35,869 nt of DNA from a virus, in IMG/VR virus record IMGVR_UViG_3300035701_000137, positions 1-35,869 of that record. The stretch is one strand, 5' to 3'. The position numbers and the translations under genes are program-made. The notes beneath the pieces are model-generated. The model worked only from the letters and a program-made list of their open reading frames with translations. It was not told where the DNA came from and ran no database searches. Below are positions 4,817 to 18,634 of this stretch, piece by piece. Position 1 is the stretch's first letter, and each line of letters starts with the position of its first letter.

Positions 4817-6592
4817 GTGGCCGTCTCGGAACAGGTACCGCTGCAGGCAACACTCCCTGCAGACATCCAGAAGGCGATCACGGCCGCCTTCGAGGACCTG
4901 CGCGAGAAGGCATGGTCGAACGAGGAGAAGCTCGCGAAGGCGGAGAGCAGCGGCGAGGCACAGCCGAAGGCATGGTTCGCCGACCCGTTCGCGCTGATGG
5001 ACTCGGTCGGCATGGGCTACCGCAACGCGCCGACGTACCTCACGTACGACACGCTCCGGCAGGTCTCCGAGCGCGACACCTTCGTCGCTCCGATTATCCT
5101 GACCCGCATCGACCAGGTAGCGGCGTTCGCGCGCCCGCAGCCGAACAAGTACAGTGTCGGATTCAAGATCCAGCCGCGCCACGGCGACAAGAAGCGTCTG
5201 CTCACCAAGAGCGAGGTCGAGCGCTGCGACGAGATCAGGATGATCGTGCTCAACACCGGGCGCGAGTACAACCTCGGCCGCGACGGGTTCCGGCAGTTCA
5301 TCGCGAAGTTCGTCCGCGACTCGCTGACCTACGACCAGGCGTGCTTCGAGAGCGTCCGCACACGCGGCGGCAGCGTGTACTCGTTCAACGCGGTGCCGAG
5401 CGACACGATCCGCACGGCCACCCCGAAGCAGATGAAGGGCACGCCACCTCGCGTCAGCGAGATCAAGCGGGACGTCCGCTACGTCCAGGTCATCAACTCG
5501 TCGATCACCGCCGAGTTCACCATCGACGAGATGGCGTTCTGCGTCCGCAACCCGCGCACGCACGTCAAGACGTACGGCTATGGGCTGCCGGAGATCGAGA
5601 CGCTCATCACGACGATTACGAGCCACCTCTGGGCGGAGGAGTGGAACCGCCGGATGTTCTCGCAGGGCTCGACCATCAAGGGCCTGCTCAACATCAAGGG
5701 CAACATCCCGCCGGTGCAGTTCGAGGCATTCAAGCGCCAGTGGCACTCGCAGGTCGCGGGCGTCCAGAACGCGTGGAAGACGCCGATGCTCAACTCGGAG
5801 GAGGTGTCGTGGACACCTCTGCAGATGAACAACACCGAGATGGGCTATCAGATGTGGATGGAGTACCTCTGCAAGGTCACGTGCGCGCTGTTCCGCATCG
5901 ACCCAGCCGAGATCAACTTCGACCTCCGCGGCGGCACGGGCCAGCAGCCGGTGTTCATGTCGACGAACGAGGCGCAGCAGAAGGCGTCGAAGGATCGCGG
6001 GCTCCAGCCTCTGATGCACTTCGTCGAGGATGCGATCAACCGCCACGTCGTGTGGAAGATCGACCCGCGCTTCGAGCTGGCGTTCGTCGGTCTCGACGCC
6101 AAGACCGAGGAGCAGGCGCAGGCGCTGCGCATGCAACAGGTCCAGAACACGCACAAGCTCAACGAGGTGCGTGCGATGGACGACCTACCTCCGGTCGAGG
6201 ATGGCGACGTCGTGCTGAACGCGACATACATCGGCTACAAGATGCAGAAGATGCAGATGGTGCAGCAGGCGCAGATGATGGCCCAGCAGGCTCAGGCGCC
6301 GCAGCCAGGTGCAGCCGGTCAGGCTGCACCGCCACCACCACGCTTCGCGCAGCCTGCCGGCGAGGCTGAGCAGCACGGCGCCGACCAGCTCCGTCAGTTC
6401 GCCGAGCACAAGCCTGGTGGTGACGACGAATCGAGCAGCGACGGGTCTGGTGTCGAAGACGAGTCGAGCGGGCCATCACCGCAGGTCCTGTCGCGTCTGC
6501 ACATGGATGACTGGGACTCCGTCGTCAGCCACTCGCTGCGAAGTGATGACCTCGCGAAGGGCGAGGTGTACGACACCTTCGATCTCGACTAG
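4817..6592 (+). CDS. portal protein
   Basis: A 591-residue portal, the dodecameric ring at one capsid vertex through which DNA is packaged and ejected. Supporting segments are the N-terminal wing with YRNAPTYLTYDTLRQVSERD, the stem/clip region with YGYGLPEIETLITTI and WAEEWNRRMFSQGS, and the C-terminal RGGTGQQP...NEAQQKASKDRGLQPLM block typical of phage portals. The tail after residue ~480 is Gln/Pro-rich and then acidic/Ser-rich (DDESSSDGSG...EDESSG). The GTG at 4817 follows the upstream stop by 3 nt and has no strong Shine-Dalgarno. It opens the head module, and its stop coincides with a TAGGCT promoter candidate. Confidence 0.9.
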   Translation: MAVSEQVPLQATLPADIQKAITAAFEDLREKAWSNEEKLAKAESSGEAQPKAWFADPFALMDSVGMGYRNAPTYLTYDTLRQVSERDTFVAPIILTRIDQVAAFARPQPNKYSVGFKIQPRHGDKKRLLTKSEVERCDEIRMIVLNTGREYNLGRDGFRQFIAKFVRDSLTYDQACFESVRTRGGSVYSFNAVPSDTIRTATPKQMKGTPPRVSEIKRDVRYVQVINSSITAEFTIDEMAFCVRNPRTHVKTYGYGLPEIETLITTITSHLWAEEWNRRMFSQGSTIKGLLNIKGNIPPVQFEAFKRQWHSQVAGVQNAWKTPMLNSEEVSWTPLQMNNTEMGYQMWMEYLCKVTCALFRIDPAEINFDLRGGTGQQPVFMSTNEAQQKASKDRGLQPLMHFVEDAINRHVVWKIDPRFELAFVGLDAKTEEQAQALRMQQVQNTHKLNEVRAMDDLPPVEDGDVVLNATYIGYKMQKMQMVQQAQMMAQQAQAPQPGAAGQAAPPPPRFAQPAGEAEQHGADQLRQFAEHKPGGDDESSSDGSGVEDESSGPSPQVLSRLHMDDWDSVVSHSLRSDDLAKGEVYDTFDLD

Positions 6593-6601: not shown

Positions 6602-8212
6602 GTGACAAGCACGCCCTACCAGTTCATCAAGCGGGGTAGCTTGTTCATCATCCCGGTCGGTCCGTCGATCGCCGAGGTGCCATACCCGACGCAGCCGTAC
6701 ACGAAGTACCCCGACTACTCGCTCTGGGTGCACGGCAAGATCACGGAGCCCGCGCTCCACCTCGACAACGCGCGGATGCCGGGCCTGTACCAGGAGGTCC
6801 GCGACGACCTCGTGCGCTACTCGCCGGTCGAGGTCACGCGCTCAGCCTTCCAGCGGTCTCAGCATGCATACGTCGGCGTGATCGATTCGCGCGGTACGCC
6901 GTACTACTTCGCGCTCGACTCACGTGGCCTGTCGGTCCGCGAGGTCGACCGCAACGACGACCGCGTGTGGAAGACGTTCGATCGGCTCGCCGTGGAGGAA
7001 CACATGGTGGCGGTTCGCAAGCGACGGACGGATTCTGCCGCGGAGATGGTCCAGGTCGACCACGAGCTGCGCGAGCCGATCCTCGTCGTCAGCAAGGCTC
7101 TCCGTTCTCAGAAGGCTGTGCAGCACCGGAAGGAGCACAAGCCTCCGAAGCCGTCACCGAAGACCGGCGTGCCGACCACTCGCCTCCACACGATCAACCG
7201 CGATGCTCAAGGGAAGACGCGGCCTTCGCGAGCGTTCCATCTTCCGTCGTCGAAGCCGGACAAGAAGCCGAAGGAGCCGAAGCCGACGAGCGAGCAGAAG
7301 GAGCATGCTCACCTGGCTCGGTACGAGGCGCGCTTGCGCGGGAAGCAGGCCATCAAGGACAAACTGCGCGCGGAGCGCCAGCAGCTGAAGCCCGCGAAGC
7401 AGCAGAAGCCGAAGGCATCGGACGAGCGTCTGAACGCGTGGCGAGCGAAGCATCCCGGAGGTAACGTCGAAGCGATGCAGGCGCACCCGTTCGCGAAGTC
7501 CAACCCTCGTCTCGTCATCAGGGTCGGCGACTACGCTGCGGAGATGCGGCGCGTCGGAGCGCTTCACGCTGCGGAGTGTGGTGAGGAGGACCTCGACCCA
7601 CCACGCCCGGAGGACTTCGAGGTCGAGAAGGCCACGCTTCCGAATGGAAGGGCGAAGGGGCACAAGCTGTCCGATCTCGACCAGGAGCAGCTACGCATCG
7701 GCGCTCGTCACGAACGTGAGCACACGACCGACAAGGACATCGCACGCAGGATCGCGGCTGATCATCTCGTCGAGGACCAGGATTACTACAAGAAGCTGAG
7801 GTGCGTGGAGAAGGCGCTGCCGAAGAAGGCCAAGGAAGAGAAGCCGAAGAAGACGCCGAACAGCAAGGCCACGAAGAAGCAGGCCGGCGCTGGCGGCAAG
7901 ACGCGCTACACGTACCCAGGTGAGAAGAAGGGCGGAGCGAAGAAGCCAGGCGCGAAGACGACCGGCAAGCCCGCTCCGCTCATCGTGGAGCACGACGACA
8001 CGAAGAACGCGAACCCCGACGAGCTTGCGAACCAGCTCGGCGTGTCCGTCCGCACGCTGCAGCGCACCGCGAAGCGTCTCGGTCGCGACGGCTTCACGAA
8101 GTTCATGCGGCCGCACCTGAAGAGGTTCGCCGCGAAGCATCGCCTCGACCCCGACTACTGGGGGACCCTGTACGAGAAGCTGCGTGCATCTGACGTCAAG
8201 GTTCCAGCATAG
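6602..8212 (+). CDS. lysine-rich head-module protein with EHT/DHL.E/YY motif and C-terminal HTH-like segment
   Basis: A 536-residue protein. The first ~130 residues are globular (FIIPVGPSIAEVPY, then AYVGVIDSRGTPYYFAL). Residues ~170-310 are a Lys/Pro-rich linker. Near residues 360-410 is ERE-HTTDKDIARRIAADHL-VEDQDYY, a signature I associate with DUF5661 (unverified). Residues ~435-470 are Lys/Gly-rich (YTYPGEKKGGAKKPG). The C-terminus (NPDELANQLGVSVRTLQRTA) looks like a helix-turn-helix. It sits between portal and MuF, so it is probably a virion or capsid-internal DNA-binding protein, but no function is recognised. GTG 6602 has no Shine-Dalgarno and follows a TAGGCT by 6 nt. Confidence 0.65.
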   Translation: MTSTPYQFIKRGSLFIIPVGPSIAEVPYPTQPYTKYPDYSLWVHGKITEPALHLDNARMPGLYQEVRDDLVRYSPVEVTRSAFQRSQHAYVGVIDSRGTPYYFALDSRGLSVREVDRNDDRVWKTFDRLAVEEHMVAVRKRRTDSAAEMVQVDHELREPILVVSKALRSQKAVQHRKEHKPPKPSPKTGVPTTRLHTINRDAQGKTRPSRAFHLPSSKPDKKPKEPKPTSEQKEHAHLARYEARLRGKQAIKDKLRAERQQLKPAKQQKPKASDERLNAWRAKHPGGNVEAMQAHPFAKSNPRLVIRVGDYAAEMRRVGALHAAECGEEDLDPPRPEDFEVEKATLPNGRAKGHKLSDLDQEQLRIGARHEREHTTDKDIARRIAADHLVEDQDYYKKLRCVEKALPKKAKEEKPKKTPNSKATKKQAGAGGKTRYTYPGEKKGGAKKPGAKTTGKPAPLIVEHDDTKNANPDELANQLGVSVRTLQRTAKRLGRDGFTKFMRPHLKRFAAKHRLDPDYWGTLYEKLRASDVKVPA

Positions 8213-8246: not shown

Positions 8247-10217
8247 ATGCCAGGCTCCCACTCGGCGAAGCAGAAGCGTCAAGCGAAGCATATCGCCGAC
8301 AGCGAGAGGAAGCGTGGTGTGAGCAGCAAACGGGCCGAGTCGATCGGATGGGCGACCGTGAACAAGAAGCTCAAGAAGAACCAGTCGCTCGCCCACGTCC
8401 AGAACCAGCTCTCCAATGCGTCGAGCGTTGCTTCGCGAGGACCGTCCAAGCCGACGAAGACGCCTTCGCATCTCACACACGTCCAGAATCAGCTCTCCAG
8501 CGCATCGAGCATCGTCGGTAAGTCGAAGAACAAGCAGAAGACGAAGAAGGCCACGGCGATCGAGTACGACCCCAACCTCGCAGCAGGAACAGCCTTGCAG
8601 ACGCCGCCTCCAGCTCCACCTCCAGTGAAGAAGTCGAAGCGGTCGTTCAATGACCCGACCCTAAAGAAGGACAAGCTCAGCACCGCTGGAATCGCGCAGG
8701 CGCAGCAGGCGCAGACGACCGTCTTACCTCTCACGAAGAAGATGAAGCTCGACAAGGCAGGAGAGACTGCAGTGCATGGCAAACGAGATCACTCCGCCAT
8801 GGGCGCCATCACCGGCCATGCCATCACTCGCATGGCCAGAGACACCGGAGTCACAGGACATCCACCGAATCCGGCTGGCAATGCGGTCACGCGTTATGGC
8901 ATCACCGCCGTTCGGAAAAAGCCGAGGGATATGAAGGCGACCAAAGCATTTAGGGTGATGACGCTCGACGACTACCACGCGACGATCATGAAGACCGAAG
9001 GCTCTGGTGGTCCCGCATCGCCAGCTGCTCCGACCACAACGCCGAAGAAATTCCCGCGCAAGGAGAAGCCGACGATCCAGTTGAAGCCCGTCGGTGAGAC
9101 GCGGCACCAACGAACGGGCGCCACAGTCAAGATGCGCGCGATCGCCGACGAGGAAGCACAGGCGAATTTAGCTGCTGGCAAGCACCTTCGTGGTGGCTAC
9201 GAGAAGGCGATGAAGCGTCTCCTGGCGATCAAGAAGGCGCTCGCGACCGGGTACGGCAAGGTCTCTGGTGGTGGTGCTCTCAAGGCTCCGAACCGCGGAC
9301 GGAGCAAGCGTCCGATCGACATCACCCTGAGCCTCACCGACTTCAATCGCGCGATGGAGGCGATGCCGAGGCCGTCCGGTCCGACGAAGCCGCCGTCGTA
9401 CCTGCCAGGCGTCCACAATCCGAAGTCGCCGATGCGGCCGAAGATGGGCCTCAAGAAGCCGAGTCGTGGCGGCGGCGGAGCCGCGGCATCGTCGGACGTC
9501 AAGAGCATGTCGGGGAAGAAGTCCGTCAGGCCAACCACATCCAGCAAGCATTCTCCGCGGGTGCTCGATGGTGGTGGTGCGACAGAGCTGTCGAACAGCG
9601 TCAAGACTGTGGTACAAAAATCAGAAGGAGACGGCACGATGTCCAAGACGAACTTCAACGACCTCTTCAAGGCCGAACTGGGCGCTGCCGCCGACGACGT
9701 GCTCTGCGACTGCCCGCACTGCGAGGCACCGATCACGAAGTCGGACCTGGAGAAGGCCCGCGGCCACAAGGGCAAGGGCGCCACCACGCACCAGAGTGGC
9801 GCGAAGCACGGCAAGTCGAGCGCGCACGTCGTCGACCAGAACCCGACCGGCGGCAACACGCGCGGCGGTGACGGTCACGGCGTCCACACGCCGAGCCGCG
9901 GCGTGCCCGGAGCGAAGAAGCATGACGCGGTCGTCGGCGTCCAGAATGGCAAGGGCACGCACGCCCGCAAGGCCGTGAAGGATTCCGATAGCGACGACGC
10001 TTCGAGCGACGACGCTTCGAGCGGCAAGGCCGCTCCGGTGAAGAAGTCGCTCGGCCCGACGTACCGCGGCACCGACTTCGTCCAGTACGTCGACTACGGC
10101 GACGCTCCTGGATCGGACGCGTTCATCGCGAAGTCGATCTCGGAGGGCTCGCTCGGCGGCACGCAGCCGACCCAGCCGATGGACCTGAACAACGACCTCA
10201 CCCGTCTCCTGATCTGA
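8247..10217 (+). CDS. long lysine-rich head-module protein, possibly two joined genes
   Basis: A 656-residue ORF. The N-terminus (KQKRQAKHIADSERKRGVS, then AESIGWATVNKK) resembles a motif common in small phage proteins. Residues 50-88 hold an imperfect repeat of HVQNQLSxASS. The middle is Lys/Pro-rich with short globular pieces (AITGHAITRMARDTG). At codon 465 an in-frame ATG (9639) has a strong Shine-Dalgarno. After it the text changes: a CDCPHC zinc knuckle, a His/Gly-rich stretch, acidic SDSDDASSDDASS, then a C-terminal globular end. Third positions before 9639 look less GC-rich than after it. It may be one virion protein, a nested pair, or a fusion of two genes. The function is unknown; the position suggests a capsid-internal or scaffold-associated role. 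Confidence 0.6.
   Translation: MPGSHSAKQKRQAKHIADSERKRGVSSKRAESIGWATVNKKLKKNQSLAHVQNQLSNASSVASRGPSKPTKTPSHLTHVQNQLSSASSIVGKSKNKQKTKKATAIEYDPNLAAGTALQTPPPAPPPVKKSKRSFNDPTLKKDKLSTAGIAQAQQAQTTVLPLTKKMKLDKAGETAVHGKRDHSAMGAITGHAITRMARDTGVTGHPPNPAGNAVTRYGITAVRKKPRDMKATKAFRVMTLDDYHATIMKTEGSGGPASPAAPTTTPKKFPRKEKPTIQLKPVGETRHQRTGATVKMRAIADEEAQANLAAGKHLRGGYEKAMKRLLAIKKALATGYGKVSGGGALKAPNRGRSKRPIDITLSLTDFNRAMEAMPRPSGPTKPPSYLPGVHNPKSPMRPKMGLKKPSRGGGGAAASSDVKSMSGKKSVRPTTSSKHSPRVLDGGGATELSNSVKTVVQKSEGDGTMSKTNFNDLFKAELGAAADDVLCDCPHCEAPITKSDLEKARGHKGKGATTHQSGAKHGKSSAHVVDQNPTGGNTRGGDGHGVHTPSRGVPGAKKHDAVVGVQNGKGTHARKAVKDSDSDDASSDDASSGKAAPVKKSLGPTYRGTDFVQYVDYGDAPGSDAFIAKSISEGSLGGTQPTQPMDLNNDLTRLLI
8394..8510 (+). 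repeat. imperfect 33-bp coding repeat (HVQNQLSxASS), two copies
   Basis: Copies at 8394-8426 and 8478-8510, 84 bp apart and in the same frame, encode HVQNQLSNASS and HVQNQLSSASS. A few, mostly third-position, differences separate them, so this is an older internal duplication. Confidence 0.85.
9623..9630 (+). promoter_or_regulatory. strong internal Shine-Dalgarno for ATG 9639
   Basis: AGAAGGAG lies 8 nt before the in-frame ATG at 9639. It is among the best ribosome sites in the head module, while the parent ORF start at 8247 has none. Confidence 0.65.
9639..10217 (+). CDS. internal in-frame product, zinc-knuckle and acidic-Ser protein
   Basis: A 192-residue product from ATG 9639 in the same frame as the ORF starting at 8247. 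It begins MSKTNFNDLFKAELGAAADD, has CDCPHC (three cysteines in six residues, a partial zinc knuckle), a Gly/His-rich low-complexity region, an acidic SDDASSDDASS tract and a folded C-terminal part (YRGTDFVQYVDYGDAPGSDAF). Overlapping head genes with internal starts are known, for example the lambda C/Nu3 protease-scaffold pair, so a nested scaffold-type product is possible. It shares the acidic Ser tracts seen in the portal tail and in the scaffold candidate at 16229. Separate production is inferred from the ribosome site and the composition change. Confidence 0.55.
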   Translation: MSKTNFNDLFKAELGAAADDVLCDCPHCEAPITKSDLEKARGHKGKGATTHQSGAKHGKSSAHVVDQNPTGGNTRGGDGHGVHTPSRGVPGAKKHDAVVGVQNGKGTHARKAVKDSDSDDASSDDASSGKAAPVKKSLGPTYRGTDFVQYVDYGDAPGSDAFIAKSISEGSLGGTQPTQPMDLNNDLTRLLI

Positions 10218-11668: not shown

Positions 11669-12066
11669 TGACCGCAGGTCCGTTCATCCTGGAGATCGAC
11701 GAGGGCGACGAAGGGCCGACGATTCACGCGCTCACGCCGGCGTCGGTGCTCGTGATCCACGGCGCAGACGAGCTGAACGGCAAGCTCGAAGCGTTCCGCG
11801 ACCCGGTCAAGAACAAGGTCGTGCAGAACACAACGAAGGCTCGTCGTTGGTACGTCGAGAAGATCCTGCCGGCGCTGCGCTATTACTGCGACAAGTACGA
11901 TGTCCCTCAACCAGACTGGCTCGTCGGCAACAACCACTGGGAAGGGATGGACGACGAGGAGAAGGAACTGTTGTTCGGTCCCGGTGAGCTGAAGTTCCGA
12001 GAGTTCCAGCCCGTGAACGTGCCGGACATCCATGTCGACCGCGAGGAAGAAGAGGTCCAGCAGTAA
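11668..12066 (+). CDS. hypothetical acidic protein
   Basis: A 132-residue protein starting at an ATG that overlaps the upstream stop by 1 nt; its own stop overlaps the MuF gene start in the same way. It has an N-terminal beta part (FILEIDEGDEGPTIHAL, SVLVIHGA), a helical middle (KARRWYVEKILPALRYYC) and a very acidic tail (VDREEEEVQQ). No motif of known function is visible. Coupling on both sides suggests stoichiometric production with the flanking head proteins. Confidence 0.7.
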   Translation: MTAGPFILEIDEGDEGPTIHALTPASVLVIHGADELNGKLEAFRDPVKNKVVQNTTKARRWYVEKILPALRYYCDKYDVPQPDWLVGNNHWEGMDDEEKELLFGPGELKFREFQPVNVPDIHVDREEEEVQQ

Positions 12067-13124
12067 TGGCGGCACGCGTCCTCACGCCGCTCCAACGTCG
12101 AAAGATCGGACAGGCGATCCGAGACGGGCACCTCGCGTTCCTCGCGGAGATGTTCGGACCGACCGCGATCGATCCCGAAGACTACGACCGTCTGCGAGCC
12201 GCCGGCAAGATCCGCAGCGAAAAGCTCCTGCCTCAGGACGCGGCGCTCGCGGCGCACCACCTCGGGTCGATCGCCGGAGAGGAGCAGTCGAGTGCGCTCG
12301 CCGCGATGCGCGAGGAGGCGAAGCGCGAGCACGTCGCGGCCGTGCACGAGATGCCGGCGACGGCAGCCGCTCGGGTGTTCGACGTGGAGAAGCCGCCGCT
12401 GCTCACGCCGGACGACTTCTGGCGCCAGCTCCGCGACGACCCTCAGGTCATCATGGAGGCGGAGCGCGAGGCCGTCGCTCTCCTGCGCGACCGCATCGGT
12501 CAGCACGTGCGCGGGCTCGGCAACAAGCTCGACGCAGCCACCGGCCACATCCTGGTCGACGCCGACGACCAGCTCCGTCGTCGACGACTCACGCGTGTTC
12601 AGCGCGAGGTGTCGCGCGGCGTGGAGGAGCGAGCGTCAGCGCAGGAGGTCGCACAGCGGATCCGCGAGGCGACGCAGGACCTCCGGCGCGACTGGCTCCG
12701 TACCGCGCACACCGAGATGCACAATGCTGTGGAGGAGGCGAAGGCGATCGTGCTCGCGCACCGCCACCCGTCACGTGACCCGCGCGTGTTCAAGCGTCCG
12801 CGTCCTGACGCGTGCGCGTTCTGCAAGCTGCTCTACCTGAAGCCTGATGGTGTCACGCCGCGGGTGTTCAGGCTCAGCGAGCTGCTCGCGAATGGGTCGA
12901 ACGTCGGCCGCCGTGCAGGCCGACCGACGCGTTCTGGGGGTTCTCGGACGCAATGGAAGGCCGTGATCGGCGCGATGCACCCCTTCTGTAAATGCGAGCT
13001 GTTCGTCATCCCAGATGGGATGGGCTTCAACGATCGGGGCGAAATGGTGTACGTAGGTACTATGAAGTCGATCGAGGTGGAGCATCTCGACGAGGCGCTC
13101 ACCAACCACGTCTGCGAGGAGTGA
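12066..13124 (+). CDS. MuF-like minor head protein
   Basis: A 352-residue protein. The N-terminal ~200 residues are helical. Residues ~210-320 carry the phage Mu F / SPP1 gp7-like head morphogenesis domain: DWLRTAHTEMHNAVEEAKA (the R-x-x-x-T-E helix), then C250-x-x-C253 and HPFCKCELFVIPDG (H305, C308, C310), the usual Cys/His cluster. MuF proteins bind the portal and are packaged inside the head, and in some phages they carry fused effector domains; none is fused here, but a kinase-like gene lies two genes downstream. The ATG overlaps the upstream stop (TAATG). Confidence 0.85.
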   Translation: MAARVLTPLQRRKIGQAIRDGHLAFLAEMFGPTAIDPEDYDRLRAAGKIRSEKLLPQDAALAAHHLGSIAGEEQSSALAAMREEAKREHVAAVHEMPATAAARVFDVEKPPLLTPDDFWRQLRDDPQVIMEAEREAVALLRDRIGQHVRGLGNKLDAATGHILVDADDQLRRRRLTRVQREVSRGVEERASAQEVAQRIREATQDLRRDWLRTAHTEMHNAVEEAKAIVLAHRHPSRDPRVFKRPRPDACAFCKLLYLKPDGVTPRVFRLSELLANGSNVGRRAGRPTRSGGSRTQWKAVIGAMHPFCKCELFVIPDGMGFNDRGEMVYVGTMKSIEVEHLDEALTNHVCEE

Positions 13125-13127
13125 ATC

Positions 13128-13706
13128 ATGGCACGCATCTCAGGAACCGTATCCCGTAACGTCCCACTCGACTCCGTCCTCGGACGACCGTTGCTGTTGA
13201 GCGGCACGTTCGACCTCTACGTGACGCAGGACGAGCTTGGCCGTGTCCAGCACGTGCTCGACGCCCTCATCGCGTCTGGCATCATGACGCAGCACAGCCG
13301 GTCCACGGAGAGCGACGGCCTCATCTCCAACGCGTCGGCGCCCGTCGTCGATGCTCCGGCGTCCGGCATTGGCGCTCCGGCTCCGCTCCACCTCATCCCA
13401 CATGCGATCCCCGATGCGGCTGGTGATAACACGTACACGTTCACTGCACAGAAGAAGATGGAGGTCGTCACGTTCTTCATCCACAAGAGCGTCGCGGGTG
13501 CCGGCAACACGATCAAGCTGCAGGACAACGCGGCGGTCGACATCTCCAACGCGGTGGCCGCGGACACCGACAAGGCGGTCACGTCGCCGGCCACGCTCGA
13601 TCAGACGAAGAAGATCATCAACGCCGGCAGCACGTACAAGTTCCTGGCGCACCGCGCCGCGGGCTCGATGGCCGCCGAGGTCTATCTGGTCGTCATCCTC
13701 CGGTAG
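13128..13706 (+). CDS. beta-rich virion protein (decoration or fibre candidate)
   Basis: A 192-residue protein with a good Shine-Dalgarno (GAGGAGTG). After an N-terminal strand-rich part (LLLSGTFDLYVTQDELG) and a Ser/Ala/Pro linker, residues ~100-192 look like a beta-sandwich: NTYTFTAQKKMEVVTFFIHK, then NTIKLQDNAAVDISNAV and a final AAEVYLVVILR strand. This looks like a surface-exposed virion domain such as a head decoration or fibre protein. It lies 3 nt before the kinase-like gene. The exact role is unknown. Confidence 0.6.
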   Translation: MARISGTVSRNVPLDSVLGRPLLLSGTFDLYVTQDELGRVQHVLDALIASGIMTQHSRSTESDGLISNASAPVVDAPASGIGAPAPLHLIPHAIPDAAGDNTYTFTAQKKMEVVTFFIHKSVAGAGNTIKLQDNAAVDISNAVAADTDKAVTSPATLDQTKKIINAGSTYKFLAHRAAGSMAAEVYLVVILR

Positions 13707-13709
13707 CGC

Positions 13710-14570
13710 TTGAGCCAGTTCTCCGACCTCGTCACGACGGAGAAGCCGCGGCATCTGGGGAAGGCTCCGGGCGGCAAGAGCGGAGCCCTGCTCGCGACGT
13801 ACGAGGGTGGTGTGAAGGCGATCGTGAAGTTGTCGAAGGACAAGCTTCCGAGCGGTCACCACAAGCAGCGCGGCATCGCGGCGTCGTTGCACCCGTCGCG
13901 CGAGGTCGCGTTCTATCGGTCCGCGGAGATGCTCGGGTTCGCCGACCTCGTGCCGGAGACCGTGCTTACGAAGAAGGCGGTGCCTGGCGCTGTGGCATCC
14001 GCGCAGCTGTTCGTCCCTGCTCACCACCTCAGCGATCTGCAGCCGAGACTCAAGGACGTCGACGACACCAACTGGGGATCCACTCTGGCAGAGACCTGCA
14101 TGGTGGTGCCGAAGAAGTTCTGGAAGCACCTGCTCGCGCTCGACGTGCTGGCCGGCGCACGAGACCGTCATGCGAACAACGTTGGTCTGCTCGTGCGCTC
14201 GGAGAACGACAGGCCGATCTACCGCATCACCGCGTGGGACAACGCGGTCACGTTCGGCAAGACGTTCGACCGCTACCACAACGTGTTCCACAAGTTCCTC
14301 TTCCGCCGCTCCGTCGACCTCGGTGACACGTGGTACCCGCTCGACAGGTTGACGCGAGCCGACCTCCGCGACGCGCTCGGTGACTACCTCCAGCCTGACG
14401 AGCTGGAGCACGCGTTCCTCCGCGTTCGGTTCTTCCTCGACTACCCTTACCGTCTGCCGTGGAAGGTCTGCAGCAAGGGCAACGACAGCCCGCACGACTT
14501 CCCAGACTACAACTCCTACTTCAATCCAGTTGCCGAGCGCCCATTGCATCTGATCAGGATCCCGGCTTGA
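13710..14570 (+). CDS. PI3/4K-HipA-type kinase-like protein in the head module
   Basis: A 286-residue protein from a TTG start. Motifs follow the PI3/4-kinase/HipA-like branch of the protein-kinase fold: a candidate ATP-binding Lys in VKAIVKL (K36 or K40), an acidic helix residue in REVAFY (E65) preceding LGFADLVPETVL, the catalytic-loop motif ARDRHANN (D152, N156/N157) and the metal-binding AWDNAVTFG (D177). The layout resembles actinobacterial SCO1664-like and Fam20/HipA kinases. It lies between MuF and the prohead protease, so it may be packaged and injected, or may modify host or virion proteins. There is no Shine-Dalgarno; translation probably continues from the gene ending at 13706. The 3' end is duplicated 146 bp downstream with an HNH fragment between. 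Kinase activity is inferred. Confidence 0.65.
   Translation: MSQFSDLVTTEKPRHLGKAPGGKSGALLATYEGGVKAIVKLSKDKLPSGHHKQRGIAASLHPSREVAFYRSAEMLGFADLVPETVLTKKAVPGAVASAQLFVPAHHLSDLQPRLKDVDDTNWGSTLAETCMVVPKKFWKHLLALDVLAGARDRHANNVGLLVRSENDRPIYRITAWDNAVTFGKTFDRYHNVFHKFLFRRSVDLGDTWYPLDRLTRADLRDALGDYLQPDELEHAFLRVRFFLDYPYRLPWKVCSKGNDSPHDFPDYNSYFNPVAERPLHLIRIPA
14541..14570 (+). repeat. first copy of kinase 3' end (PLHLIRIPA-stop)
   Basis: The last nine codons and stop of the kinase-like gene. A diverged copy lies at 14687-14716 encoding PPNLIRVPA-stop, offset by 146 bp in another frame. Most differences in the shared LIR(I/V)PA part are synonymous, as between two divergent homologous genes. Confidence 0.55.
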
Positions 14571-14672
14571 CGTGTCCTCGACGAGATCGCGAAGTGCGAT
14601 CTCGTCTGCGCCTGCTGTCATCGGATCCGGACGGAGGCCCGGAGGATCCAGAAGGCAGTGGATGCTTCGTGA
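14571..14672 (+). pseudogene. HNH endonuclease C-terminal remnant
   Basis: Thirty-three codons and a stop, in the same frame as the kinase-like gene and directly after its TGA, encode RVLDEIAKCDLVCACCHRIR followed by TEARRIQKAVDAS. The EIAKCD-hV-CAxCHRxRT pattern is the typical C-terminal zinc-knuckle end of small phage HNH endonucleases. There is no start codon and the HNH catalytic part is missing, so this is a decayed fragment. The preceding stop is TGA followed by C, a context that can be leaky, so a low level of readthrough adding this tail to the kinase is conceivable. Confidence 0.7.
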
Positions 14673-14686
14673 CCCCTTCCAAGAGG

Positions 14687-14716
14687 CCCCCGAACCTGAT
14701 ACGCGTACCAGCGTGA
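14687..14716 (+). repeat. second, diverged copy of kinase 3' end (PPNLIRVPA-stop)
   Basis: In the +1 frame relative to the kinase this stretch reads PPNLIRVPA followed by TGA, paralleling PLHLIRIPA-TGA at 14541-14570. Codons for L-I-R-P-A differ mainly at synonymous positions. Together the two copies bracket the HNH remnant, suggesting an insertion or recombination scar. Confidence 0.5.
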
Positions 14717-14724
14717 GGTTCGTG

Positions 14725-14730
14725 TATAGT
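14725..14730 (+). promoter_or_regulatory. TATAGT -10-like hexamer before prohead protease
   Basis: TATAGT in the intergenic stretch would start transcription near 14737, giving a leader of about 13 nt before GTG 14750. No -35 is recognisable. It is the best promoter candidate for the capsid module, which has no other upstream signal. Confidence 0.4.
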
Positions 14731-14749
14731 CAAGTCGTGGTGACCCGCT

Positions 14750-15493
14750 GTGCGTGAGAACGTCGAACGTCTCCTGGAGAACGACGACTTCACCGTCTGG
14801 GCTCCGGCGTGCGTCGAGGTGATCGAGAAGGCCGGCGTCGACCTCGAAGCGACGCGACCGATCGGCGGCTGGTGCTCGACGGAGAACCTCGATCGTCAGG
14901 ACGAGGTCGTCGTCGCGAAGGGGCTCGACTTCAGCGAGTTCGTCTCGTTCGGCTACTTCAACGACAACCACAAGCAGGACACCTCCGCCGTCCTTGGTTA
15001 CCCGCGCGTCGCGCGCCTGGAGAAGTCGCGGTGGTGGACCGAGGGCAACCTGCTCGTCGGCTACGCACCAGCAGACAAGGTGTGGGAGCTGGCGAAGGCG
15101 ATGAAGAAGTCGAACGCGCCTCGGCGCCTCGGCTTCAGCATCGAGGGGAAGGTGCTGGAGCGTGACGGGGGCAACCGCATCGTCCGTGCGAAGGTGCGCA
15201 ACGTCGCCATCACGAACGCTCCGGTGAACACCGACTGCCTGTGGAGCATCCTCTCCAAGGCGTTCGCTCCGCTGAAGGCAGTGGAGAACGCCCAGCGCAA
15301 GGCCCTAGCGGAAAATTCATCGTTGGTGCAGAGTGTGGGGGTAAGTCGTCGCGGGCACCACGTGAACAGCATCGTCCACCAACGCAACGATCTCCTCTCA
15401 CACGACGAGGCGATCGATCGCGTGCGCAGGATCCACCCGAACCTCAGCGTTGACGTAGCCGCACGCGTCGTCGGCTTCGCGATGAACCGCTGA
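14750..15493 (+). CDS. prohead (head maturation) protease
   Basis: A 247-residue serine protease of the phage prohead protease group (S78/XkdF-like). It cleaves scaffold and capsid N-termini during head maturation. Visible features are GGWCSTENLDRQDEVV near residues 39-54, the FNDNHKQ box with likely catalytic H74, the WWTEGNLLVGY strand, and RRLGFSIEGKV with likely nucleophile S130. VRNVAITNAPVN follows, as usual in the family. The C-terminus (~75 residues) is extended and basic. GTG 14750 lacks a strong Shine-Dalgarno. It leads protease, small proteins, scaffold and MCP, the canonical order. Confidence 0.85.
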   Translation: MRENVERLLENDDFTVWAPACVEVIEKAGVDLEATRPIGGWCSTENLDRQDEVVVAKGLDFSEFVSFGYFNDNHKQDTSAVLGYPRVARLEKSRWWTEGNLLVGYAPADKVWELAKAMKKSNAPRRLGFSIEGKVLERDGGNRIVRAKVRNVAITNAPVNTDCLWSILSKAFAPLKAVENAQRKALAENSSLVQSVGVSRRGHHVNSIVHQRNDLLSHDEAIDRVRRIHPNLSVDVAARVVGFAMNR

Positions 15494-15853: not shown

Positions 15854-16207
15854 ATGGGTCAGAACGCCAACATCCCGAACTTCGCCAACGTCAACCTGTT
15901 CAAGGTCGGACGTGGCGAGACGTTCACCGTGCCGGACACCGAGGCTCAGGCGTCGCCGAGCGGCATCTCGTCTGGCCTCTCCCCGGCCAACATCTTCGAC
16001 ACGAGACGACTCGGCGTCGGAGGGTACATCTTCGCGGCGTTCAGCGACGTCGCGGGTCCGGCCACGGAGGACTTCCAGTGGAAGATCAATCCGGGTGACG
16101 TGATCGCGGTGAGCGCCGCGTCCCCGGCGATCGTTTCGCAGAACGGCACCCAGATCTTCACGATCACGAACACCGCCGTCTGCGGCATCCTCGCGTACCA
16201 CTCGTAA
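15854..16207 (+). CDS. small beta-rich head protein (second decoration candidate)
   Basis: A 117-residue protein preceded by AGGAGAAG, a strong ribosome site. Its strand-rich text (YIFAAFSDVAG, WKINPGDVIAVSAA, QIFTITNTAVCGILAYHS) suggests a beta-sandwich or beta-barrel. It sits between another small beta protein and the scaffold candidate. It could be a capsid decoration or fibre-type protein. It resembles the upstream neighbour in size and beta content only. Confidence 0.6.
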   Translation: MGQNANIPNFANVNLFKVGRGETFTVPDTEAQASPSGISSGLSPANIFDTRRLGVGGYIFAAFSDVAGPATEDFQWKINPGDVIAVSAASPAIVSQNGTQIFTITNTAVCGILAYHS

Positions 16208-16228: not shown

Positions 16229-17221
16229 ATGGCCAAGTCCAAGGCAAAGAGCCCGCCCGAGAAGATCCCGGAGGGCAAGCTCCTCAAGGCTCTCGCCGAG
16301 CTGGAGGACGCGATCGAGAAGGGTGACGTCCTGGAGGACGCCGATCCGGAGGGTGGTCTCTCCACCGAAGGTGAGCCGCTGTCGAACGCGGCGCCGTCGG
16401 GCAAGTCCGACACGAAGAAGTCCCGCCGCAGCTCGTCGAGCAGCTCGTCGAGCGCCGCGAGCAGCGACGACGGAGACGACGACTCGTCGAGCGACGACGC
16501 GTCTTCGCCGTTCCCGCCGAAGAAGAAGATGAAGAAGGGTGCCGTCGAGAGGGCGGCAGCCGCGAGCAAGGACTCCATGAGCGACGAGGAGTCGAGCGAC
16601 GAGGAGTCGAGCGACGACGCGTCGAGCCCGGCCGAGAAGTCGTTCCGCGAGGTCGCGGAGGGCGACGAGGTGATGGCGAAGGCCATCGACGTCTCCGACT
16701 TCATGGAGGCACTCGTCGACCAGATCAGCCTCGCCATGCTCAAGATGGGCAAGGACGTCGCGAAGTCGATGGTGCGGATCGAGGAACGCCTCGGGGCTCG
16801 CATCGACAACCGCGTCGCCAAGAGCATCGGCTACCAGCAGAGCTTCAACGCTCGGCTCGCGAAGGCCGTCGCGGCGATCGGCACCTCCGTCCAGGAAGAC
16901 CTGGTCGACATGGTGAAGTCGCTGTCCGAGCAGCCCGCGCCGCAGCGCGGTCGCGCGGTGCTCTCCAAGGGCGAGGTCAACCAGCCGCCCTGGCAGGTCA
17001 CCGGCAACGACCAGCAGATGGCTGGTGGCTCCGAGGGCGGGGCCTTCATCGCCGAGCTGAGCGAGCTGTCGTCCGAGGCGATCGGCGACTGGCTGTTCAA
17101 GGCGACCACCAACAACAAGATCGATCCCAAGCTGATCCTCGCTTGGGAGGCGGATCGCTACAACGTCGAGACCCTGCCCCCGATGGTGCGTAAGGCTCTC
17201 GTCAACGACCTCTGCAAGTAG
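16229..17221 (+). CDS. acidic Ser-rich scaffold candidate
   Basis: A 330-residue protein with a strong Shine-Dalgarno (AGGAG). After a Lys-rich start and a helical stretch, residues ~67-93 and ~116-133 are Ser/Asp/Glu repeats (SSSSSSSS, SSDEESSDEESSDDASS) around a basic FPPKKKMKKG patch. Residues ~140-245 look helical and amphipathic (EALVDQISLAMLKMGKDVAK). The C-terminus (EAIGDWLFKATTNNK and on) is folded. Position between protease and MCP, helical content and charge fit a scaffolding protein that guides capsid assembly and is then cleaved. The acidic Ser repeats are shared with the 9639 product and the portal tail. Confidence 0.6.
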   Translation: MAKSKAKSPPEKIPEGKLLKALAELEDAIEKGDVLEDADPEGGLSTEGEPLSNAAPSGKSDTKKSRRSSSSSSSSAASSDDGDDDSSSDDASSPFPPKKKMKKGAVERAAAASKDSMSDEESSDEESSDDASSPAEKSFREVAEGDEVMAKAIDVSDFMEALVDQISLAMLKMGKDVAKSMVRIEERLGARIDNRVAKSIGYQQSFNARLAKAVAAIGTSVQEDLVDMVKSLSEQPAPQRGRAVLSKGEVNQPPWQVTGNDQQMAGGSEGGAFIAELSELSSEAIGDWLFKATTNNKIDPKLILAWEADRYNVETLPPMVRKALVNDLCK

Positions 17222-17236
17222 GGAAGGAGCCGCACC

Positions 17237-18634
17237 ATGATCTCGATGAAGGACTACGAGGGCTACCACGGCTTCGGCCAGATCGCGTCCAACGACGTCG
17301 ACGAGCTGAGCAAGGCACTCAGCGCTGGCTATCAGAACCCACCGGTCTCAGGATCGAACGCGCTGCGTGTCGAGTCGCTGGAGCAGACGCTCCGCGTCCT
17401 GACGTTCACGCAGGCGCACATCCAGTTCTGGCGGGACATCCCGAAGCTGCCGGCGTTCAGCACGGTCGAGGAGTACAACGTCCAGACGAGCTACGGCTCG
17501 GAGGGCGGCATGTTCACCCGTGCCGGAGAGCTGCCCCAGGTCCAGGACGCGTCGTACGAGCGCCGCACGGCTCTCGTGAAGTACGTCACCACGCAGCGCG
17601 AGGTCGATCACCCGACGACCCTCGTCCGGCCTGCTCACGGCAACGTGATCGCGCAGGAGACGCAGAACGGTGGCGTGTGGATCCTGGAGCGCGTCGAGCG
17701 CGCGCTCTACAACGGCAACAGCGCCATCATCGCGGAGGCGTGGGACGGCATCGACACGCAGATCCGCAACGACCCGAGTGCGGCGGCGTCGATCATCGAC
17801 CTCCGCGGCGGCATCCTCACCGAGGACAACATCGAGGACGGCACCAACCGCGTCATCGAGAACTACGGCGTGCCGACCGACCTCTACGCTGCGCCCAAGG
17901 CGCTGTCGTCGATGGTGAAGCAGTTCTACCCACGCGAGCGCTTCTCGATGCCAGCGCCGGTCGACGGCATCGTCGGGATGTCGGTCAACCGCGTCCGCAC
18001 GCAGGCAGGTCTCATCAACCTGAAGGGCAACATCTTCCTGCGCTCGGGCAAGAACAACAGCGTCAAGGGCGCTCCGGCGTCCGCGAACGCGGTCCGCGCT
18101 CCGGTGGTCCCGAGCGGCGCGGCGGTGAACAACGCCGGTCCGGTCGCGGCCTCGCTGTTCGGCGTCGGCGACATCGGCACGTGGCGCTACAAGGTCGCCG
18201 CGGTGAACCGCTTCGGCGAGTCGGCGGCGTCGGCAGAGACCACGGCGGCGATCAACGCGGCCGGCGACACGATCACGCTGACGATCACGAACAACGCGGA
18301 CTCGTCGGACCCGACGACGGGCTACAACATCTACCGCATCGCGTCGGTGCCGGGCGCCGCGAACACCGAGGTGTTCATGGTCCAGGTCCCGCGCATCGCG
18401 GGCGCCGCCACCACGGTGTTCGTCGACGTGAACCGGTTCCTGCCGAACACGTCGCGCGCGTACCTGAAGCAGATGAACCTGCAGGGCGTCAGCTTCCGAC
18501 AGCTCGCGCCGATGATGAAGATCCCGCTCGCGACGATCGCGCTCTCCATCCGGTGGGCGATGCTTCTGTACGGGATGCCGATCGTCTACGCGACGCGCAA
18601 GTTCGTCATCTACGACAACGTCGGCGACGAGTAA
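17237..18634 (+). CDS. major capsid protein with inserted Ig/FN3-like domain
   Basis: A 465-residue protein with a strong Shine-Dalgarno (AAGGAG), following the scaffold candidate. It fits an HK97-fold capsid subunit: N-terminal arm, E-loop-like region around residues 75-105 (EEYNVQTSYGSEGGMFTRAG), a spine-helix-like region and a P-domain with YGVPTDLYAAPKALSSMVKQ. Residues ~275-400 are an extra domain with Ig/FN3 features: WRYKVAAVNRFGESAAS, then TITLTITNNA and TGYNIYRI. The capsid sequence resumes with RAYLKQMNLQGVSFRQLAPM. Such insertions project from the capsid surface and can bind host surfaces or sugars. A terminator follows. Confidence 0.85.
   Translation: MISMKDYEGYHGFGQIASNDVDELSKALSAGYQNPPVSGSNALRVESLEQTLRVLTFTQAHIQFWRDIPKLPAFSTVEEYNVQTSYGSEGGMFTRAGELPQVQDASYERRTALVKYVTTQREVDHPTTLVRPAHGNVIAQETQNGGVWILERVERALYNGNSAIIAEAWDGIDTQIRNDPSAAASIIDLRGGILTEDNIEDGTNRVIENYGVPTDLYAAPKALSSMVKQFYPRERFSMPAPVDGIVGMSVNRVRTQAGLINLKGNIFLRSGKNNSVKGAPASANAVRAPVVPSGAAVNNAGPVAASLFGVGDIGTWRYKVAAVNRFGESAASAETTAAINAAGDTITLTITNNADSSDPTTGYNIYRIASVPGAANTEVFMVQVPRIAGAATTVFVDVNRFLPNTSRAYLKQMNLQGVSFRQLAPMMKIPLATIALSIRWAMLLYGMPIVYATRKFVIYDNVGDE

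Follow-up and report, generated by a model that had tools for sequence, protein, structure and literature searches.

Phage T4 carries an ADP-ribosyltransferase, Alt, in its head. As for kinases, two from phages have been characterised, those of T7 and 933W (PMC8008677), and a kinase of the HipA family is encoded between the portal and major capsid protein (MCP) genes of five 'Gratiaviridae' phages (PMC8008677), so that a head-module kinase is in itself an already known kind. A further precedent concerns MuF (SPP1 gp7), a portal-bound virion protein of which each capsid has one or two copies (PMC5576092); enzyme domains and toxins linked to MuF have been hypothesised to be injected (PMC5576092, PMC5512222).

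The DNA considered here, hereafter "the window", is the whole 35,869-nt stretch of IMG/VR record IMGVR_UViG_3300035701_000137, and comes from a tailed phage that has not been cultured. It covers the head-tail region of this phage, which is myovirus-like and has an SPO1-like capsid. One of its genes encodes a predicted kinase of the PI3/4K-HipA-FAM20 group that stands alone and that, in this phage lineage, always belongs to the head module. Compared by description, the 'Gratiaviridae' kinase belongs to the same broad group and has the same placement between portal and MCP, but its own neighbours are a glycosyltransferase and an AAA ATPase, and the role proposed for it differs (PMC8008677). The likeness to the MuF polymorphic toxins lies in the enzyme domain that is fused to MuF in the window's relatives; those toxins, however, were described in temperate phages, in a paper the text of which does not mention kinases (PMC5576092), and the window kinase stands alone. 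The kinases of phage polyvalent proteins are likewise late-gene phage kinases thought to be injected, but they form a distinct group without the C-terminal subdomain (PMC5512222), whereas the window kinase keeps a helical C-lobe. What appears to be new, within the open-access literature, is a MuF-linked family of the PI3/4K type that is fixed in an uncultured lineage with SPO1-like capsids, includes fusions and has a link to a culturable phage.

The kinase gene within the head module

The open reading frame at 13710-14570 is a genuine conserved gene under purifying selection and not a chance ORF, since it is encoded at 19 IMG/VR loci, has a low dN/dS and a GC3 like that of its neighbours, and retains invariant residues. 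A protein query found relatives at nine IMG/VR loci, and an alignment-based search 19 loci that encode the kinase, at 43–79% identity; dN/dS is about 0.09–0.39, with synonymous changes far exceeding non-synonymous ones, and GC3 is 0.86. An antisense ORF of 493 aa (13140-14621) was considered as the gene and rejected in favour of 13710-14570. Searches of the phage collection returned no close homologue of the kinase, and no homologue was found in GTDB genome contigs; an MCP search of the genome collection gave two MAG contigs only. A tRNA search found none. The features of the module are collected in Table 1.

Table 1. Features of the head module in the window, with the evidence for each
Feature	Position	Strand	Evidence
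Portal protein	4817..6592	+	PF04860 E 5.5e-25; phrog_12 E 5.2e-52
MuF-type minor head protein, 352 aa; constant upstream partner	12066..13124	+	weak family matches; Cys/His pattern common to fused MuF proteins
Beta-rich protein; optional insertion between MuF and kinase	13128..13706	+	presence/absence in relatives
Kinase CDS, 286 aa, TTG start	13710..14570 including stop (13710-14567 without)	+	homologues, predicted structure, fold matches
K40 codon, predicted ATP-binding Lys (beta3)	13827..13829	+	invariant in 18 sequences
E65 codon, predicted alphaC Glu	13902..13904	+	invariant in 18 sequences
Catalytic loop ARDRHANN, residues 150-157; D152, H154 and N157 invariant	14157..14180	+	matches PF00454 catalytic region in relatives
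Metal-binding motif AWDNAVTFG, residues 175-183; D177 invariant	14232..14258	+	18-sequence alignment
Apparent HNH endonuclease remnant, RVLDEIAKCDLVCACCHRIRTEARR..., in frame after kinase stop	14571..14669	+	tblastn to annotated phage HNH endonucleases
13-nt element TTCGTGTATAGTC / TTCGTGTATA[GT]TC, candidate promoter -10 region	14719..14731	+	conserved in close relatives
Prohead (head maturation) protease; constant downstream partner	14750..15493	+	phrog_1028 E 3.6e-47; SPO1 gp3.2 relative
Head scaffold-like protein, Ser/acidic tracts; speculative substrate	16229..17221	+	phrog_15087 E 0.0016
Major capsid protein, SPO1 gp6.1-like	17237..18634	+	36% to SPO1 gp6.1

The window copy does begin with TTG and lacks a Shine-Dalgarno sequence, as the initial annotation had remarked, but relatives use GTG or ATG at the same codon, and the TTG start as a mark of special regulation was rejected on that ground. 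The upstream stop is only 3 nt from the start codon; translational coupling is therefore a simple explanation of the missing Shine-Dalgarno.

The gene order MuF, kinase, protease is constant. The place first described for the kinase, between MuF and beta-protein genes on one side and the protease gene on the other, is thus conserved, except that the beta-rich gene is only optional: it is present in the window and in the related loci (L numbers) L014, L015/L016 and L017/L019, and absent from L001, L011, L012, L013, L018, L020, L021 and others. Its product has no match in Pfam or PHROG. Because it occurs in only some relatives, and because L047 carries a homologue near 16080, about 8 kb from the start of the capsid gene, the beta-rich gene evidently moves within the module. 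The window gene at 6602-8212 encodes a protein of 536 aa that contains an HTH-like stretch and a domain matching DUF5661 (E 4.4e-12); parts matching this protein are split or rearranged in several relatives. The gene at 8247-10217 encodes a Lys-rich protein of 656 aa with Ser/Asp tracts; over its first 40 residues even distant relatives are 70–77% identical, and the remainder is variable.

Between the kinase stop and the protease start, the stretch 14571-14717 has the look, in its sequence, of a scar left by a mobile endonuclease that had inserted where the kinase gene ends. The putative remnant corresponds to the C-terminal end (33 aa) of an HNH endonuclease and is up to 78–80% identical, over part of its length, to annotated HNH endonucleases, many of them from actinobacterial phages. 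After it, at 14690-14716, the C-terminal tail of the kinase (PNLIRVPA) occurs a second time, and the whole stretch is absent from relatives. The 13-nt element that comes next lies, in close relatives too, between the kinase stop and the protease start; as a promoter motif of general use in the window it was rejected, since it occurs there once.

Predicted fold, active site and family relations

By its own sequence the window kinase stays below every family cut-off, with sub-threshold or weak matches in Pfam, NCBIfam, PHROGs and PADLOC. It gives no match to PF00454, falling short of the curated cut-off, and its match to HipA_C has an E-value of 0.21 (11.7 bits against a cut-off of 30.5); TIGR03843 reaches E 0.003 in one family member, and the best PADLOC match is PDC-M03A (E 1.3e-4). 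A profile of the kinase family found nothing among PDB sequences. The homology runs through relatives: a profile built on the close family picks up L080 (E 4.8e-39) and, at its C-terminal part, L048 (E 8e-38), both of which are above the PF00454 cut-off (E 5.5e-8 and 8.7e-9, respectively), and PF00454 is passed by stand-alone and fused relatives alike (L048, L080 and L082) and by a protein of Myxococcus phage Mx1.

An AlphaFold model of the window kinase, built from 15 homologues, is bilobal (pLDDT 81, pTM 0.83). The closest PDB fold to this predicted structure is PI4K type II (Z 17.7, 236–238 residues, rmsd 3.5–3.9), followed by FAM20 (Z about 14–16), CtkA (14.7) and HipT/HipA (11–13); Foldseek comparison of the model with PI4KIIalpha gives E 1.3e-6, and the helical C-lobe is aligned with PI4KII as far as residue 268. 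The active site was examined in an alignment of 18 sequences, stand-alone and MuF-fused, the fused ones at 17–20% identity. Eleven columns are invariant (K40, E65, P82, S97, Q99, D152, H154, N157, D177, H194 and R238), five of which, K40, E65, D152, N157 and D177, are the predicted catalytic residues expected of a kinase; the glycine-rich loop is variable. On these models, a kinase fold with an intact-looking active site is almost certain. The initial annotation had assigned the gene to the PI3/4K-HipA branch from the motifs ARDRHANN and AWDNAVTFG, preceded by a Lys and a Glu, and the fold, the invariant residues and the homology to PF00454 members bear this out. Its numbering of D152 and D177 is correct, and the two findings on which it had staked the assignment, a bilobal kinase fold in a predicted structure and retention of the Lys, Asp and Asn positions among homologues, were both obtained.

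PI4K type II (PF00454) has the same order of catalytic motifs and, at about 238 residues, gives the best match to the predicted structure, but the window kinase is only 13–16% identical to it, is without the eukaryotic extensions and gives no indication of a lipid substrate. The HipA and HipT toxin kinases (PF07804) share its fold and the D-x-H-x-x-N catalytic loop; the window protein differs from them in its very weak HipA_C match, in its length of 286 aa and in its surroundings, where no HipB-type antitoxin gene was recognised, the neighbours being the beta protein/MuF and the protease. This structural group includes protein kinases as well as lipid kinases. A lipid role need not be assumed for the window kinase, which most likely acts on Ser/Thr residues of proteins.

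Inheritance with capsid genes and linkage to virion proteins

Distribution was assessed over distinct loci in which the sequence ahead of the protease spans 1 kb or more. Where the MCP is at least 49% identical, all 19 loci have a kinase domain immediately ahead of the prohead protease; three of them are without a measurable MCP and were placed in the group by their kinase. Five of the 19 (L046, L047, L048, L051 and L080) were found only via the MCP and are therefore free of selection by the kinase query. In the group with MCPs at 41–48% identity (n = 40), the kinase is just before the protease in none; 34 of the 40 have no detectable copy in the covered stretch, and six have the kinase farther upstream on a long ORF, on which MuF is also visible in loci long enough. 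Long kinase-less contigs of this group, several exceeding 95 kb, were searched whole and yielded no kinase. Distances between the kinases correlate with those between the MCPs (Mantel r 0.86) and between the proteases (0.83), and the kinase gene is therefore inherited with the capsid genes.

In relatives the kinase domain comes after MuF, with or without the beta protein, and before the protease; in L048 an acetyltransferase-like domain precedes the kinase domain, and the protease follows. SPO1 and Exiguobacterium phage 132 pass directly from portal to protease, with neither MuF nor kinase between, and two kinase-less loci (L069:1101-5621 and L099:406-5571) have giant topoisomerase I and inorganic pyrophosphatase proteins between MuF and protease. 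With other enzymes at this place in related phages and nothing there in SPO1, the position is therefore a slot for accessory enzymes and not the site of a universal assembly need. Proteins of about 1,800 residues with no Pfam match occupy the same slot at L074:108-5462 and L098:19-5565.

Kinase and MuF are separate ORFs in the window and form a single polypeptide only in L087, L082 and L121. An N-terminal MuF is followed by the kinase domain in single ORFs of 995 aa (L121) and 893 aa (L087), and the same arrangement, of at least 865 aa, is found in L082 (PF00454 E 6.9e-10), where the ORF runs off the end of the locus. The Cys/His pattern of the fused MuF domains is common to the window MuF, and in a model built with seven relatives the kinase domain from L087, too, has PI4KII as its best match (Z about 20). 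Single-protein scans for further MuF-fusion loci found none. In evolutionary terms the kinase behaves as a partner of MuF, being adjacent to it in the window and part of the same polypeptide in related phages.

Kinase domains are also encountered among virion genes elsewhere. The cultured Myxococcus phage Mx1 (PMC10720576) encodes a 619-aa protein (OR576727, 28851-30710) that matches GNAT weakly at its N-terminus and contains a kinase domain (E 3e-16 against the family profile, 2.9e-8 against PF00454), which is the architecture of L048; its gene lies between those for the MCP and the tail sheath, and the Mx1 MCP is homologous to that of the window (26%, E 5e-21). The Mx1 kinase thus resembles the window kinase in its family-profile match and its place in a head-tail module (the MCP-to-sheath region), but differs in its length and GNAT-like N-terminus, in lying downstream of the MCP and in having no recognised MuF adjoining. 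A structure search of viral models found a kinase-like domain in the product of HHTV-1 gene 13, which lies two genes away from one that is gpF-like. In HSTV-2, gene 16 (L125:10647-12116), three genes after the capsid gene, has a kinase-like C-terminal part; its loop reads DRHYGN, and its PF00454 score falls narrowly short of the cut-off. The HSTV-2 model was equated with gene 16 by equal length (490 residues) and by the motif in the translation. The N-terminal 130 residues of this archaeal virus protein resemble, by eye, a neck or tail-completion protein, a likeness that, if true, would mean that a kinase is here joined to a part of the virion. In BFVD, kinase-like domains occur in phage proteins, identified by name and length only, that are annotated as portal, head morphogenesis and ADP-ribosyltransferase proteins.

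Possible roles of the kinase

The reading that we prefer is of a virion-borne effector. The kinase would enter the prohead with MuF near the portal, would stay in the particle and, after ejection, would phosphorylate proteins of the newly infected cell. An enzyme of entry fits the MuF partner, the MuF fusions, the links to other protein-modifying enzymes and the replacement of the kinase by enzymes in its slot. A capsid-borne kinase had been suggested in the initial annotation, and that idea is partly supported, in that the MuF-kinase fusions and the kinase domains among other phages' virion genes would argue for it. As the kinase is a separate protein in the window lineage, its location in the virion is argued by analogy with the fusions; neither an immunity gene nor a packaging signal was recognised for it. 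For the mechanism as a whole, in which we infer the activity, the protein substrate, the presence in the virion, the delivery and the benefit, we consider the chances to be evenly balanced.

The constant position before the protease in all 19 loci, and the inheritance with MCP and protease, would also suit a kinase of head assembly that phosphorylates scaffold, MuF, protease or capsid and times scaffold release or maturation with no need for injection; the fixity of the gene in the lineage fits such a role nearly as well as one at entry. The densest 40-residue scaffold windows of Ser/Thr plus acidic residues mostly score 9–16 in kinase-bearing phages vs 6–10 in those with no stand-alone copy, a suggestive signal but one confounded by descent, for SPO1 scores 11 without a kinase and L023 scores 7 with one, the tracts are missing in phages with a MuF-fused kinase, and the window portal also reaches 10. 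Homologous capsids do without the kinase in 34 covered loci and in SPO1, and we regard an assembly function as unlikely, albeit a serious contender. Less probable again is an unpackaged effector that acts late within the cell, modifying host proteins or the envelope and thereby preventing superinfection or shutting the host down. The same proposal has been made for the 'Gratiaviridae' kinase of the portal-MCP interval in five phages (PMC8008677), and HipA and HipT are, by fold matches, kinases of the same group; but no glycosyltransferase or ATPase is recognised beside the window kinase, unlike its 'Gratiaviridae' counterpart, and the MuF fusions, apparently with portal and neck-protein fusions as well, point to the particle and not to the cytoplasm. 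Kinase folds are often reused, and the variable glycine-rich loop would be in keeping with a catalytically dead protein that serves as a structural part of the head. Such a pseudokinase is, however, very improbable when K40, E65, D152, N157 and D177 are among the only 11 columns that stay invariant down to 17% identity.

Returning to the virion-borne effector, it is conceivable, though we hold this only tentatively, that PI3/4K-type kinases are a general and unrecognised class of virion-borne enzymes in tailed viruses of bacteria and archaea, which would move between a stand-alone form and forms linked to MuF, portal, neck-protein, acetyltransferase or ADP-ribosyltransferase partners, and would be injected to phosphorylate proteins of the host as infection begins. 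For the window phage itself, a gene left unnamed by family searches gains a testable function, and a kinase of the capsid operon that is fused to MuF in relatives and has a homologue in the cultured phage Mx1 offers a way to test the carriage of kinases in phage heads.
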